From assembly GCA_011772205.1 (NCBI GenBank), contig WVZY01000008.1, positions 124,001 to 188,000 on the forward strand: DNA of 64,000 nucleotides. The letters run 5' to 3'. The notes beneath the pieces were generated by a model. The model did not search any database and was not told where the DNA came from. It worked only from the letters and a program-made list of their open reading frames with translations. Below are positions 27,985-62,594 of this stretch, piece by piece. The stretch comes from Candidatus Latescibacterota bacterium (GTDB lineage: Bacteria; Krumholzibacteriota; Krumholzibacteriia; WVZY01). Each line of letters opens with the position of its first letter. The first letter of the stretch is position 1. The position numbers and the translations under genes were made by a program.

Positions 27985-28196
27985 GATGGGGATTCATCAC
28001 CGGCAACTTCTTCGCTCGGCTATCCGCCTCCGGCGCGCAATCTTTGTTAGAATGCTGCGTGATACGAGTTCCTTACGTGCGTGCGCCTTGCTCGTCCATG
28101 CTCCTCCGGCGGAGGATCTTCGCTCGCTCCGCGCAATGGTTCGTTACCCCCACGGAGCCTTCCTGCTTCTTCCGCGCAATAGTTAGCCACCCTCAC
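27985..28196 (+). repeat. ~200-bp GC-rich dispersed repeat, copy 1
   Basis: Colinear with the reverse complement of 60531-60735. Shared blocks include CTATCCGCCTCCGGCG, CCTCCGGCGGAGGAT and CTCGCTCCGCGCAATGG, then CCCCCACGGAGCC. The CCTCCGGCGGAGG core is palindromic. A short plus-strand reading frame crosses it but is not called as a gene. It fills most of the 396-bp gap between the Cys-rich gene and the metallo-hydrolase gene. Confidence 0.8.
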
Positions 28197-28209
28197 CACG
28201 CCGCTTTTG

Positions 28210-29049: not shown

Positions 29050-29108
29050 TTCTCTCCTTTCGCCGTGGCGGATCACGAATGGCGATGGCGATTGAGCAGA
29101 GATGGGCA

Positions 29109-29170
29109 TCGTCCGCTCCAATCGACATATCCAACGCCGCCGAGAGCTGGCGTTGCACAAATGTATCATA
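29109..29170 (-). repeat. Hairpin repeat element (HRE), copy A, in the leader of the MBL-fold gene
   Basis: The stem AACGCC/GGCGTT is followed, on the minus strand, by a conserved flank containing CGATTGGAGCGGACG. The same element occurs at 31104-31166, 33335-33396, 49321-49375 and 62474-62533. Confidence 0.75.
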
Positions 29171-29173
29171 TCA

Positions 29174-29203
29174 TATAGAAAAATCCAGAGAAGCGATTGT
29201 CAA
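29174..29203 (-). promoter_or_regulatory. Sigma-70-type promoter for the MBL-fold gene
   Basis: A perfect -35 TTGACA (29203-29198), an 18-bp spacer and TCTATA (29179-29174) sit directly upstream of hairpin repeat copy A. The repeat would therefore be at the very 5' end of the transcript. Confidence 0.5.
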
Positions 29204-29291
29204 GATTCACCTTCTGGATTCGATGGTTCAAGTCCTTAGCGGGGTATTCAGGCCCAGCCAGTCGCTACCCCAATTGCTTTGCTCGAAGCGA

Positions 29292-29612
29292 TTAGTCGTC
29301 TTCTACGTATACCGCGGTACCATAGGCAAGCAGCTCGGAGGCGTTCTGCATCATACTCGATGTCATAAAACGTACACCGATAACGGCGTTCGCCCCCAGC
29401 GTCAAGGCTTCTTCTCTCATCCGGTCCAGACACTGCTCACGAGATTCGGCCATGAGCTTTGTGTATTCAGTGATCTCACCGCCTGTAATATTCTTGAACG
29501 CCGCAGTGATGTCTCTCCCCAGATGGCGAGCGCGAATCGTGTTCCCGCGCACGATACCGAGGATCCGCTTGATCTGTTTACCCGGGATTGCTTCTGTTGT
29601 TGTAATAATCAT
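29292..29612 (-). CDS. YbjQ/UPF0145 family protein
   Basis: 106 residues covering the complete YbjQ (DUF74) fold, with the conserved RGNTIRARHLG and GANAVIGVRF segments. Proteins of this family form pentamers and were proposed to bind heavy metals; the role is unclear. ATG 29612 overlaps the anti-sigma stop by 4 nt, so it belongs to the sigma/anti-sigma operon. Confidence 0.92.
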   Translation of the reverse strand: MIITTTEAIPGKQIKRILGIVRGNTIRARHLGRDITAAFKNITGGEITEYTKLMAESREQCLDRMREEALTLGANAVIGVRFMTSSMMQNASELLAYGTAVYVEDD

Positions 29613-30043
29613 CGTTTTACCCCTTTATAAGGATCATTCTTGCTTTCGTGATAGCGCTCCCTCGCGACTGAGATGAAGATGACCACAAGACCGATGAGGA
29701 TGACCGTAATGCTGATACCTTCGTACGTAAAAAACCGCGGGGAGGTTACCGCTTTGAAGATCCCGTAGAAAAGGATCCCAACGACGCCGATCACCACGAA
29801 GAAGAATCCCGTGCTTCGCTCCACACGCCGGTAGACGCTTTCCCAGTACCCTTCCCAGAATTCATCATCGGGGGGTCTGAACCTCAACTCGTTGGTGAGC
29901 TCGACCACTCTGCCGAGATCTTTCAGTTCTTTGCGGCAGTCCTCGCATTCTCTCACGTGCGCCTCATAATGCAGCTTTTCTTCCTCGGACATTTCACCGT
30001 CGAGGAGCCTCATACCGTCGCTTTGAAAGCGGTTGCAGCCCAT
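29609..30043 (-). CDS. Membrane anti-sigma factor with zinc-finger (ZAS/zf-HC2) domain
   Basis: 144 residues from ATG 30043 (GGGAGG ~10 bases upstream, one base after the sigma-factor stop). The N-terminal ZAS motif is His29-X3-Cys33-X2-Cys36, with an additional Cys3. Two hydrophobic helices (~84-103 and ~114-132) follow, so it is an inner-membrane protein. Such proteins hold ECF sigma factors inactive until a redox or envelope signal. Paired with the sigma factor immediately upstream. Confidence 0.88.
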   Translation of the reverse strand: MGCNRFQSDGMRLLDGEMSEEEKLHYEAHVRECEDCRKELKDLGRVVELTNELRFRPPDDEFWEGYWESVYRRVERSTGFFFVVIGVVGILFYGIFKAVTSPRFFTYEGISITVILIGLVVIFISVARERYHESKNDPYKGVKR

Positions 30044-30044
30044 A

Positions 30045-30662
30045 CTATACCACCTCCCCAGGTGCGGGGTGGCCTTCCGCAAGCAGATGGCCGGTGCCAG
30101 GGATTCCAGTTTTCTCGAGTTCGAGTATGATGTCTTTCAGCACTTTTCTTGCGTAATACAACCGAGACATCACGGTTCCAATAGGAATTTCAAGGATTTC
30201 AGCTATTTCGGCGTAGGAATAACTCTTGAAGTTTTTCAATATGATGACTTCTCTGTGCTCAGGCGATAAGCGTCCAATGGCGATCCGCAGGAGCTTGTGC
30301 CTTTCTTCCTTTTCGAGCGATTCGAGAGGTGTCGGGGTCACGGATGCGAAGCGTTCCCTGCCAGGTTTGTCTTCCTGGTACAACGATTCGTGCCCCTTTG
30401 CGTGGCGTTTCAGGTGGTTCAAGCAATGGTTTTTTAGAATCTTATAGAACCAGGGATAGAAGGGCTTGTCTGGATCGAAGCTCTCTCTTGCTTGGAACGC
30501 CTTGACAAATGCGTCTTGTGACAGATCTCGCGCGTCCTCGCGGTTACCGACGAAACCATAAGCGATCAAGAAGGCTTCCGTCATGAAATGGCGGACGATA
30601 TCCTCGAAGGCCTTCTTATCGCCCTTCTTCCACCTGGCAATGATCTCTCGTTCGTTTTCCAT
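30045..30662 (-). CDS. ECF-family RNA polymerase sigma factor
   Basis: 205 residues. The sigma-70 region 2 (~20-90, with EDARDLSQDAFVKAF and the FYPWFYKILKNHCLN segment) and region 4 (~125-185, with the helix-turn-helix YAEIAEILEIPIGTVMSRLYYAR) are both complete. First gene of sigma - anti-sigma - ybjQ, all overlapping or adjacent. Likely autoregulated; I could not pick a convincing self-promoter in the 530 bp upstream. Confidence 0.94.
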   Translation of the reverse strand: MENEREIIARWKKGDKKAFEDIVRHFMTEAFLIAYGFVGNREDARDLSQDAFVKAFQARESFDPDKPFYPWFYKILKNHCLNHLKRHAKGHESLYQEDKPGRERFASVTPTPLESLEKEERHKLLRIAIGRLSPEHREVIILKNFKSYSYAEIAEILEIPIGTVMSRLYYARKVLKDIILELEKTGIPGTGHLLAEGHPAPGEVV

Positions 30663-31190
30663 TGCGCCCGCATAACCGGCCTGTTAGACGCCGGATTCGA
30701 CAACCACCTTTAAAATAAAAAGTTAAGCTTTTCCGTCGGCCCAGTCAAGCCGATCGCTCGATGACTTATGCAGACCATACAAGCCGAGGGGCGGATTATT
30801 CAATGCGATCGGCGAACCTGTGGCATGAGTGCAATTCCCAAGAAATGCACCTGCTTTGCGCTGGAAAGGACGCCTGCAGGATCGATTATACCAGCACAGG
30901 TCCATTTCCCGCGATCCCAAAATACTCACCTGGATCCTTCCGTCCCTACAGAGATGATCGTCAACAGGATTCAGCCGCCCAGCGTGGAAGGCCTCTTTAT
31001 ATCAGTTGACCCCCAGATTCACCTGTGGTATCTCTCACAAGAATTCTTGGGCGCATCGCTTTGCAGCTGTCTGCATATCAAGGCGACTTAGCGGCTAAGG
31101 AGCGTCGTCCCTTTCCAATGGACGCGTGCAACGCCGCCGCAGGCCGGTGTTGCATCTAATTATCGTATTGTCACAGGGAATTCGAACGGT
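30663..31190. other. 528-bp divergent intergenic region
   Basis: No convincing gene. Overlapping short frames exist on both strands (30723-30929 minus, 30761-31009 and 30768-31091 plus) without RBS or family-like sequence. It contains a small palindrome CTTAGCGGCTAAG at 31087-31099 directly beside hairpin repeat copy B. The promoters of both the sigma gene and the FemAB-like gene should lie here. Confidence 0.5.
31104..31166 (-). repeat. Hairpin repeat element (HRE), copy B
   Basis: TGCAAC pairs with GTTGCA around a GC-rich inner stem (GCCGCC/GGCCGG). The conserved CGTCC and CCAATGGAC flank lies at the left and TAATTAT at the right. Strand given is that in which the AT-rich -10-like end is upstream, as in the other copies. 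Confidence 0.75.
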
Positions 31191-32165
31191 ATGCGAGTAT
31201 TGGAAGATAATCAAGAAACGAGAGAGAGGTACTCGCGTATCTACAAAACCAGTGAAACCGCAACCGTTTACCAATCCCCCGAGTGGCTGCGAGTTCTCGA
31301 GAGCCTCAGGGGAGAGCTCATCTTTCTAGAAATTGATGAGAATTCGCTCATCCCATTCATCTGCAAGGGAAGAGGTCGGCTCAAAAGGTGTTACTCACTG
31401 TCTTTCGACACCTACGGAGGCCCAGTTTCGCGCAGCAGTCCAAATGTATCTTTCGAAGAGGTGGTTCATGCGCTCAAGATCCCGTCCGTTCGCATGGTCG
31501 ACTTTTCCCACATAATGGTGGACCGCTCCAATTCAGCAATTGAGTTCCACGCACATATAATGGACCTCACCGGAGGAATCGAGCGTGTTACAAAAGCCTA
31601 CACAAAAAAGAACAGGGAAGCCCTCAGGCAGTCAGCCAGGCGGGGAATCCAGATCGAGAAGATGAATGATCCCAAACTCCTGCCGGTATTCTATGCATTG
31701 GTGAGCCACGCCGCCCGCAGGCACCGAACAGTGCCGCATCCCATGCCGCTCCTTCGTCAAATCTACAAGATAATGGTTCCCAAGAACATGGCGTCCTTCT
31801 ATTTCGCTCGTCACGAGAATAAAGCTGTGGCTTGCAATTTGATTTTACGAGACAAAAAAACTGCCTATGACTGGCTGTTGGGATATAAAGAGGAGTTCCT
31901 CCAGCTCAGGCCGGCGAATGCATTGATCGACCGAGCGGTTCGCAATGAAATCGACATCGGCTGTGAAGCGTTCAATTTGGGAACGTCTCCATTCGAACAC
32001 CGGGGAATCATCAAATTCAAGGAAAGCTTCGGCGCGAAACCCTATCCGTATCGTGTATTCTTTAAAGCGGGTCTGTCTTACAGCGTGATGCGGAAACTAA
32101 AGAGTAGGGCCCTGAGGCTGGGACCAGGAAAACCAGCAAAGAATTCCAACGGGGTTGATGAATAA
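31191..32165 (+). CDS. FemAB-like/GNAT-fold aminoacyl- or acyltransferase
   Basis: 324 residues. A double-GNAT arrangement resembles the FemAB family used for peptidoglycan bridge formation or in exopolysaccharide/exosortase clusters. Family-like parts are TVYQSPEW near the N-terminus, KKNREALRQSARRG in the middle (~145) and NLGTSPFEHRGIIKFKESFGA near the end. Cytoplasmic. It precedes a membrane glycosyltransferase by 123 bp on the same strand, which suggests a surface-glycan role. The acceptor is unknown. Confidence 0.78.
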   Translation: MRVLEDNQETRERYSRIYKTSETATVYQSPEWLRVLESLRGELIFLEIDENSLIPFICKGRGRLKRCYSLSFDTYGGPVSRSSPNVSFEEVVHALKIPSVRMVDFSHIMVDRSNSAIEFHAHIMDLTGGIERVTKAYTKKNREALRQSARRGIQIEKMNDPKLLPVFYALVSHAARRHRTVPHPMPLLRQIYKIMVPKNMASFYFARHENKAVACNLILRDKKTAYDWLLGYKEEFLQLRPANALIDRAVRNEIDIGCEAFNLGTSPFEHRGIIKFKESFGAKPYPYRVFFKAGLSYSVMRKLKSRALRLGPGKPAKNSNGVDE

Positions 32166-32288
32166 CAGGCTCCTATGCAATCCTGTCGTTCCCGTAATTA
32201 AAATCCTCCAGGCATCCCGATTCAGCTGGCAGCGCCTGACGTCGTTTATCCGCTATACGAAATCATCTCTCCCGCTCAAGGTCCCAGC

Positions 32289-33953
32289 ATGCGCCTTAAA
32301 TATAGAATACTTCTTCACCTCATTTCGATAATTCTCTTCATCTCGCTATCCTTGTTTTTTTTCACCTGGATTCCGGACGATGCTTACATTAGTTATTGCT
32401 ATGCGAGGAATCTCGCCGCAGGAAACGGCTTCGTTTTCTATCCCGGAGAGAAGGTCGAGGGCTTCTCGAACTTTCTCTGGACGCTTTACTTGGGCGGTGC
32501 TTCGAGTATTGGAGCCGACATTGTTCGGACAGCAGTTATTACATCGCTTCTCTTCGCCCTGGGGGCGCTGTTTCTCATGCAGTGGCTCATTCGTGCCACC
32601 TGCCTTTACACAGGCGTGGAGACGATTCCCACACCCATAGAGCTCGCAGCTGTAACCATTCCAGCCGTTTTTTTCCCTTTGATTTTCTATGCAACCTCAG
32701 GTTTAGAAACTTCGGCCGCGCTGTTCTTCCTCGTGCTCGGCGTTCTACTTCATCTCGAAGCAAAAGTGAACCGCCGGTCATCGTTTCACGTGGCTGCATT
32801 GTTCGCTTTCCTCGGCGTTTCCCTGCTGCGGCCGGAGGGGATTATATTCCTGCTAATAAGCGCCCTGTTCCTTCTAGCCGACAGGCGGGCGCTATCGAAG
32901 CGAAAAGCCCTGCTCGTGGCGCTCCCTTTTGTTCTCTACGCGATTTTCGTTGCGGTCAAATATCTATACTTCGGAAGCCTGCTGCCCAATACATATTATG
33001 CGAAACCTGGAGCATCACTCCATTATTTGAAACCGATCCCTCGCGGATTTGGCTATCTCATCAACTTCTTCACAAAAAGCGGACTCGTCTTGCTCCTGCC
33101 TCTCGCCGTCTATTCCCACAAACGCCCCAAGGCGGCGTACGCGTGGCGCTACATTTGGAGCCTTACGCTGGGCCAGCTGGCGTTCATCATCTTCGGGGGG
33201 GGAGACATACTCAGGTTCGACCGGTTCACCCTTCCCTTCTTCCCGTTGCTCCTAGCCGCAACCTGCATGGCCTTCGTGGAGCTCACGCGAAACCACGAGC
33301 TTGCGAGCCAAACGGCAACCGAGCTGCCAGGGAACGCCGCCGGCTCTAATCACAAAATGCAACACGGCCGCAGGTCGCCGTTGCATAAAATTATCAAGAG
33401 AACGGCCCTGGCGAGCCTCATCATCATCTGCGGTCTCAATCTCGCTCAGATACCCATAGCAAAGGGAAAATACCGCTTTCACGATTGGATGCACGCTCAC
33501 ATTCAGAAGGAGACCGGAGTAATGCTTGCCGGGACCTTGCCGGCACACAGCAGCATTGTCACCAATGAGGTCGGTGCGTTTGCATACTACTCAGGTCTCG
33601 CAGTTATCGACATGATAGGGCTGACAGATAGGACCATAGCTCGAATTCTCTACGAGTCTTATATGACATATGGCGTAGGAGGAAGCGAATGGAGTGTAAA
33701 AGAGATTACAAAATACCTGCTGTCAAGGAAACCCGAGTGTATCGTCATTCCCGCATACCGCCCGCTCTCGCTGACGGATATTGATGCGAATAGAGATAGG
33801 ATGCATCTGCTTTGGCACACGATTCTGGCCGATAAGACTTTCCTCGACGAATATCGCTTTCTTACTTTCATCGAAGTTCATGCAATGAAATACTTATATA
33901 TCTTTATCGCAAAAGGAATTACTCCTAAAACGGAGCTTCCGGATCCCGGTTAG
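32289..33953 (+). CDS. GT-C-fold membrane glycosyltransferase
   Basis: 554 residues with about ten hydrophobic helices. The catalytic Asp30-Asp31 pair is in the first periplasmic loop (PDDAYISYCYARN), followed by GEKVEGFSNFLW, the layout of polyprenyl-phosphate-sugar-dependent GT39/AftB-type transferases. A soluble domain follows the last helix (~400-554). Residues ~350-369 are encoded by a copy of the hairpin repeat (33335-33396), in frame, in a predicted loop between hydrophobic helices. No strong Shine-Dalgarno is visible before ATG 32289. Sugar and acceptor are unknown. Confidence 0.82.
   Translation: MRLKYRILLHLISIILFISLSLFFFTWIPDDAYISYCYARNLAAGNGFVFYPGEKVEGFSNFLWTLYLGGASSIGADIVRTAVITSLLFALGALFLMQWLIRATCLYTGVETIPTPIELAAVTIPAVFFPLIFYATSGLETSAALFFLVLGVLLHLEAKVNRRSSFHVAALFAFLGVSLLRPEGIIFLLISALFLLADRRALSKRKALLVALPFVLYAIFVAVKYLYFGSLLPNTYYAKPGASLHYLKPIPRGFGYLINFFTKSGLVLLLPLAVYSHKRPKAAYAWRYIWSLTLGQLAFIIFGGGDILRFDRFTLPFFPLLLAATCMAFVELTRNHELASQTATELPGNAAGSNHKMQHGRRSPLHKIIKRTALASLIIICGLNLAQIPIAKGKYRFHDWMHAHIQKETGVMLAGTLPAHSSIVTNEVGAFAYYSGLAVIDMIGLTDRTIARILYESYMTYGVGGSEWSVKEITKYLLSRKPECIVIPAYRPLSLTDIDANRDRMHLLWHTILADKTFLDEYRFLTFIEVHAMKYLYIFIAKGITPKTELPDPG
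33335..33396 (-). repeat. Hairpin repeat element (HRE), copy D, inside the GT-C coding region
   Basis: ATGCAAC/GTTGCAT perfect outer stem and CGGCC/GGTCG inner stem (one G-T pair), with the conserved GGCTCTAATC-type left flank and AATTATC right flank. It lies in frame within the glycosyltransferase gene on the opposite strand to the coding direction. Confidence 0.65.
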
Positions 33954-49296: not shown

Positions 49297-49326
49297 TTAA
49301 CATCTTGAAATCGAAAGCTTTATAAT
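49297..49326 (+). promoter_or_regulatory. Sigma-70-type promoter for uspA
   Basis: TTAACA (49297-49302), 18-bp spacer, TATAAT (49321-49326). The -10 box is the first part of hairpin repeat copy E, so the repeat would form the 5' end of the transcript. Confidence 0.5.
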
Positions 49327-49375
49327 ATGCACCGTTGACTTGCGCCGACATTGCGTATATCGATTGGAGCGGACG
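49321..49375 (+). repeat. Hairpin repeat element (HRE), degenerate copy E, in the uspA leader
   Basis: Matches copy A in the conserved flank (CGATTGGAGCGGACG, 49361-49375) and overall layout. The stem arms have decayed and pair poorly. Confidence 0.65.
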
Positions 49376-49440
49376 CTGTACCGTCGCTGCTCAACCGTCA
49401 CATGCTCCCTAATGAAACCCAATGCCAGGAGGATAGAGGG

Positions 49441-60423: not shown

Positions 60424-60833
60424 ATGACTTCCCCCTAGAGGCTTGGACGTATGGTATATGCCGGCACGCCACTTGTAAACAGAAATTGTGGTTTTAGACA
60501 GCCATAGAGCGAGTGAGGAGTGCTGCGCGATGGGGGTGACGAACCATTGCGCGGAGTGAGCGAGGAGGCTCCGTGGGGGTGACAAACCATTACGCGGAGC
60601 GAGCGAGGATCCTCCGCCGGAGGCGGATAGCCGAGCGGGAGCGTGGTGAGCACCCCTCCACGGTGCCTTCCGCAACAAAAATCGCCCGCCGGAGGCGGAT
60701 AGTCGAGCGGAGCGGGCGTGTGATGGGGAATTCCCACATAGCCGACAAGAAGAAGCAGGCGCACCTTAGGAAACGGCCATTTCTTGCCTTATAGATCGTT
60801 CCCTACAGCTCGTTGAATACCGATGAATCAAAG
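60424..60833. other. 410-bp intergenic region dominated by the dispersed repeat
   Basis: No credible gene: the frame 60435-60764 on the minus strand is the repeat read in one phase. The repeat copy (60531-60735) accounts for half the region. No promoter was recognised for the DUF4446 gene. Confidence 0.55.
60531..60735 (-). repeat. ~200-bp GC-rich dispersed repeat, copy 2
   Basis: Reverse complement is colinear with 27985-28196. Internally the CGGAGGCGGATAG unit occurs twice and the TGGGGGTGAC-AACCATT-CGCGGAG unit occurs twice, so the element itself is built from tandem modules. CCTCCGCCGGAGG is a palindrome. Confidence 0.8.
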
Positions 60834-62369: not shown

Positions 62370-62473
62370 GATTCGCCCCCTTTTCAAGGAGTTGGAAGAC
62401 CGCTCCTGATTAAAAGATCGACAGCGGTCCCTATTTGTCTCAGCTTATATGGCCATTGAAGCGGGACAGAACG

Positions 62474-62533
62474 CCGTCTGCTCCGATTGCCTGGTGCAAT
62501 GCCGCCGAAAGTCTGGATTGCACATAGTTATAC
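62474..62533 (-). repeat. Hairpin repeat element (HRE), copy C
   Basis: Perfect seven-bp outer stem GTGCAAT/ATTGCAC (62494-62522) with the conserved flank CGTCTGCTCCGATTG and AT-rich TTATACC end. It lies between tRNA-Leu and the DUF4139 gene, with a -10-like TATAAC at its upstream end on the minus strand. Confidence 0.75.
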
Positions 62534-62594
62534 CACAACGAGGAAATTCCATTCCAGAGTGGCGTCAGGGAAAGGTAAGATTTGGGAATATTCT

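Follow-up and report, generated by a model that had tools for sequence, protein, structure and literature searches.

Rickettsia palindromic elements (RPEs) are palindromic repeats of Rickettsia and Wolbachia that lie between genes as well as in frame within open reading frames, where they occupy exposed regions of the protein (PMC2229807, PMC3767692). Such insertions into ORFs are frequent for RPE classes 1-3 (PMC3767692), and some in-frame fusions are also described for small mobile repeats other than RPEs (PMC2229807). Intragenic REPs carrying a GTAG or a CGTC tag occur in several species, and for the CGTC REPs no link to transposase genes is reported (PMC3733652).

Here, we describe a repeat family from a window of 64 kb (the whole stretch of DNA that was analyzed), which derives from a 4.13-Mb Latescibacterota genome of 96.5% completeness. 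A sequence-only reading had described one copy as a hairpin repeat inserted in frame in a glycosyltransferase gene and had compared it to RPEs. At first sight, the repeat resembles several known groups. RPEs and the Wolbachia palindromic elements share with it the palindromic nature, a size of ~100 bp, and the occurrence between genes and in frame within them. Like REP/BIME elements, it consists of short hairpins in many copies, chiefly intergenic and occasionally within ORFs, and like bacterial MITEs (Correia/NEMIS, ERIC, RUP) it is non-autonomous, shorter than 200 bp, capable of forming stem-loops and mostly intergenic, with some fusions in frame. The features discussed below are collected in Table 1.

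Table 1. Location of the glycosyltransferase gene and of the repeat copies in the window
Feature	Position	Strand	Basis
GT-C-type membrane glycosyltransferase gene, carrier of the insertion	32289..33953	+	ORF, 554 aa; AftB profile; fold; synteny
Copy D, two-hairpin repeat (ends ±3 nt; residues ~342-369)	33308..33395	+	R2 match; information content
Hairpin 1 (HP1) of copy D, several pairs decayed	33314..33354	+	Alignment to R2 consensus
Hairpin 2 (HP2) of copy D, outer stem TGCAAC/GTTGCA intact	33357..33386	+	Alignment to R2 consensus
Best-fitting 25-codon insert, residues 344-368	33318..33392	+	Protein alignment to three orthologues
Copy A, intergenic	29080..29176	+	R2, 75.5 bits; in R2 training set
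Copy B, intergenic	31075..31173	+	R2, 50.7 bits; outside training set
Copy F, intergenic	49309..49406	-	R2, 72.5 bits; in R2 training set
Copy E, intergenic	62444..62541	+	R2, 59.1 bits; outside training set

The repeat unit and its copies in the genome

Two models of the repeat were used: R1, built from five window copies and searched against the whole genome, and the covariance model R2, trained on 26 copies including A and F, with copies B, D, and E left out. With R2, 45 genomic copies were detected at E <1e-4, five of them in the window. Copy D, which is outside the training set, is matched at positions 33307-33404 with 53.6 bits and a genome-wide E-value of 2.6e-13; the model E-values are rough because of a short calibration, but the margin is nonetheless large.

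The unit consists of two adjacent hairpins with 2 bases between them and AT-rich edges, and its approximate sequence is ATATATGGCGATTGAGCTGCGACGGAACGTCGTCnGCTCCAATCGCCnTATGCAACGCCGCCGAAGGTCGGCGTTGCATAAATTAT. It covers ~88 nt, beyond which the information content of the 45 copies drops to background. The unit ends were judged by this fall, and conservation 5′ of the originally noted hairpin was seen in genome matches printed with their flanks. The interval 33335-33396 proposed for copy D in the sequence-only reading therefore needs revision: it covers hairpin 2 and only half of hairpin 1, but the true unit has two hairpins and runs from ~33308 to ~33395. Correspondingly, the copy is coding and in frame as proposed, but it spans residues ~342-369 rather than the ~20 residues from ~350 to 369. 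Some genomes of family f8 harbor hairpin 2 alone or hairpin 1 alone (L092:1501-1577, L142:1501-1569), and the two hairpins may therefore be separable modules.

Of the 45 copies, 42 are intergenic and two overlap gene edges by 1 and 36 nt, which leaves copy D as the only one located wholly within a gene. These assignments depend on genes called by a custom, simple codon-usage script instead of a curated annotation, and the genome-wide context was taken from separate genome stretches. The window is 88% coding, and random placement would not yield 42 of 45 intergenic copies. The same preference is seen for 11 weaker matches and for 17 matches in other genomes, all of which lie between genes or merely touch gene edges.

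The copies are highly diverged, with a mean pairwise identity of 57% and a maximum of 77%. When 80 genomes of the phylum were searched at E 1e-4, matches were found in the window's genome and in all five genomes of the set that belong to one other family, f8; the five genomes of the set from other genera of the family of the window's genome showed none at this threshold. A stretch of 4.3 kb (29080-33404) holds copies A, B, and D, all oriented alike, compared with a genome mean of ~1 copy per 92 kb. Local duplication was considered for these three, but their mutual identity of 61-66% against the family mean of 57% makes no strong case for it. Another interspersed repeat family, unrelated to the first and up to ~190 nt long, is also present in the window (28010-28204, plus strand; 60522-60712, minus strand) and has 53 matches in the genome. 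Its best partners are 75-91% identical, so that this family looks younger than the two-hairpin family, and it probably breaks the assembly, because several of its matches are located at contig ends.

A conserved, folded unit could also be explained by function: the repeat would then be a structured RNA or a regulatory DNA element under selection, and copy D a hairpin within the mRNA. The two hairpins themselves, pairs that are changed on both sides in some of 26 copies, and a covariation score exceeding that of all shuffles agree with this explanation, as do the 42 of 45 intergenic positions, 16 of them between divergent genes. The structure was, however, drawn by hand from the consensus before pairs were counted on the 26 copies, so that the counts are biased toward it, and RNAalifold on a MAFFT alignment returned just 4 pairs. 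Even in the biased count ~22% of the pair cells are broken, as expected of decaying copies. Between same-strand genes no orientation bias exists, with 10 copies oriented along the genes and 10 against them, and no Rfam match falls on the element: at the gathering threshold, the search for a known RNA family returned just a tRNA in the window, and four copies gave nothing up to E 1. In addition, one f8 copy is found at matching places in three genomes (G051, G041, and G055), and between G041 and G055 it is identical at 84 of 97 positions, compared with 103 of 120 in the adjacent spacer. This copy drifts like spacer DNA, which speaks for copies that are old and inert rather than conserved for a function as RNA. 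Taken together, we regard a selected RNA or regulatory element as unlikely.

A closer comparison separates the family from each of the groups it resembles. RPEs are palindromes of 100-150 bp, whereas the unit described here is shorter and made of two separate hairpins, and in-frame insertion into an ORF applies to a single copy, D. By their descriptions, RPEs also belong to Rickettsia and Wolbachia, and the present repeat to a different phylum. The proposed resemblance to RPEs thus stands only as an analogy: architecture and intragenic frequency differ, as presumably does the sequence. We conclude that the two-hairpin family does not belong to the RPEs; it is an old family in its own right, mostly intergenic and of the same general kind. 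REP units, in turn, are single palindromes of 20-40 bp with an unpaired terminal GTAG or CGTC tag, whereas the present unit combines two dissimilar hairpins, its consensus ends are AT-rich and carry no such tag, and the sole GTC-rich stretch lies within hairpin 1. The Y1 transposase (RAYT) of REP/REPIN systems was searched for with PF01797, and at E 0.01 the genome, which is 96.5% complete, gave no match; one weak match was found in one f8 genome. As CGTC REPs are reported to lack an association with transposase genes (PMC3733652), this absence excludes only the RAYT-linked kind.

MITEs carry terminal inverted repeats, but the 5′ end GGCGATTG and the 3′ end GTTGCAT of our unit do not pair, and each hairpin closes on itself. 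Nor did the 45 copies show target-site duplications, since direct repeats in a fixed geometry were not in excess, although old copies may have lost them; the direct repeats AACGGC and GCGAGCC flanking copy D are within chance. Integron attC sites form one long hairpin in which a 5′ RYYYAAC pairs with a 3′ GTTRRRY. This assignment was rejected because the 3′ arm here reads GTTGCAT and the ends neither match nor pair. In summary, the family is of the same kind as RPEs, REPs, and MITEs but has the defining features of no single one of them. Narrow searches of the literature brought up no account of repeats of this type from the phylum Latescibacterota, and the family may be undescribed.

Copy D in the glycosyltransferase gene

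The product of the 554-residue ORF matches the profile of the arabinosyltransferase AftB (E 7.2e-20), and by fold it matches OST, AftB, and ArnT, in keeping with a GT-C glycosyltransferase. Its closest named relatives are encoded in the Candidatus Latescibacterota MAGs CP070677.1 and CP070631.1. In the window, the gene is part of a locus with the order metallo-beta-lactamase (MBL), YbjQ, anti-sigma factor, ECF sigma factor, glycosyltransferase, and peptidase, which is kept in genome G004 and partly kept in G005 and G001. Based on this conserved order, the glycosyltransferases of these three genomes, which belong to other genera, are orthologues of the window protein and share 38-44% identity with it. 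In the window (31075-32165), the ECF sigma factor and glycosyltransferase genes are separated by a gene of the FemAB/GNAT type (31191-32165), immediately 5′ of which lies copy B, whereas G004 has only ~225 nt at this place; the gene seems to have been gained in the window's genome or lost in G004.

Copy D is read through without a stop or frameshift in the ORF translation, and the R2 match identifies it as a copy of the hairpin repeat, as had been proposed. Between a conserved RF..P..P motif and an E.GA motif, the window protein has 107 residues; the corresponding distances in the three orthologues are 82, 79, and 82. Scanning all single excisions of 0-39 residues, we obtained the best alignment after removal of residues 344-368, with a score of 743 compared with 662 for the unexcised protein. 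Placements within residues 331-369 score nearly equally, so that the protein alignment alone leaves the ends unfixed; with 44% protein identity to the closest available relative, the insertion ends are not exactly readable, and part of the excess may be loop drift. The excess of 25 amino acids nevertheless agrees with the size of the element, and a search of the orthologous loci from other genera with filters off revealed no repeat element. An analogous difference exists at copy A, where the spacer measures 242 nt in the window and 53 nt, without the element, in G004.

Comparison of the sequences places the segment of copy D within the repeat family and demonstrates its absence from the syntenic orthologues. 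Homologues that lack the repeat and yet carry the same residues at this position were looked for, and none was found. With ~25 residues and the element missing at this site in orthologues from other genera, the in-frame insertion of the repeat into the glycosyltransferase gene, as postulated from the sequence, is well supported.

The surroundings of the insertion appear to be permissive. In distant homologues the loop at this site differs in length, indicating that a change in length is tolerated there. The predicted structure shows a coil at residues 345-363, with pLDDT <50 at 349-361, flanked by helices at 317-344 and 364-391. The prediction thus supports the proposed position in an inter-helix loop, which would be disordered. 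The added residues are hydrophilic and include four K/R and one acidic residue, and this positive charge suggests that the loop is cytoplasmic.

The tolerance of this region could also mean that the loop simply grew by ordinary length variation, with codons resembling the repeat by chance. The varied loop lengths of distant homologues fit such growth. It is contradicted, however, by the genome-wide E-value of 2.6e-13 that the complete two-hairpin unit reaches in a model trained without D, by an identity of 71% to the consensus over 90 nt, and by the fit between the protein excess and the element. We therefore consider chance resemblance in a growing loop extremely improbable.

Fate of the added segment and proposed spread of the family

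With its 71% identity to the consensus, copy D is mid-range among the intergenic copies. Its differences from the consensus are distributed as 9, 8, and 9 over codon positions 1, 2, and 3; at these small numbers, no protein-level constraint on the added segment is visible in the sequence. Open frames are common in the repeat, with 28 of the 45 copies free of stops in the frame of copy D, but the frequency of open frames over 90 nt is 0.38, only a slight excess over 0.32 for shuffled sequence. Copy D gives the impression of a tolerated insertion by an element that was not built for coding.

Alternatively, the insertion could have been co-opted, so that the positively charged segment now plays a role in the glycosyltransferase and is maintained by selection. 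In agreement with this, the frame of copy D is still open although its divergence equals that of typical intergenic copies, indicating an old insertion that was not purged, and the segment is hydrophilic with the excess of K/R noted above. But the even spread of differences across codon positions and the predicted disorder argue against co-option, and an open frame is in any case required to translate the rest of the enzyme downstream. We consider co-option very unlikely. The same judgment applies to the broader proposal of an undescribed mobile two-hairpin element of the Latescibacterota, with an unrecognised mechanism, whose rare coding insertion was co-opted as a functional segment of the glycosyltransferase.

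Dispersal of the family to many unrelated places and the absence of the insertion from orthologues make past mobility likely, and we infer transposition of the repeat. No autonomous partner was identified, and viral contigs searched with two exact patterns, which are weak for so diverged a family, contained none. REP and IS200/IS605 systems act through recognition of folded single-stranded DNA, and by analogy the hairpins of the unit suggest recognition of this type.

Based on these observations, we propose that a non-coding two-hairpin repeat of ~88 bp and of the MITE/REP kind spread in the past within the lineage, nearly always into intergenic DNA. An enzyme acting in trans on folded single-stranded DNA, since lost or not recognised, would have moved it. 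One copy would have entered the gene of the GT-C glycosyltransferase, at a site coding for a loop that connects two membrane helices. The ORF survived because the net gain of ~75 nt is a multiple of three and the element is free of stops in this frame. The protein thereby would have gained ~25 residues, probably disordered and neutral, and tolerated rather than used. We consider it highly probable that an old repeat of this kind spread between genes and that its one in-frame insertion in the GT-C loop is tolerated without being used. The initial characterization as a mobile element that can supply proteins with new segments is overstated, given that 1 of 45 copies is intragenic, mobility is deduced from dispersal alone, no mobilising enzyme was found, and the added residues show no sign of being useful.

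One coding insertion next to 42 intergenic copies provides a measure of how strongly such insertions are purged or avoided. The insertion in the glycosyltransferase is a clean new example of a phenomenon already known in other bacteria. It shows that translated sequence in a length-tolerant loop can originate from a palindromic repeat that is mostly intergenic, in this case in an uncultured phylum distant from Rickettsia. This agrees with the view that small repeats ordinarily give rise to such insertions as a by-product, and that these are not peculiar to reduced intracellular genomes.
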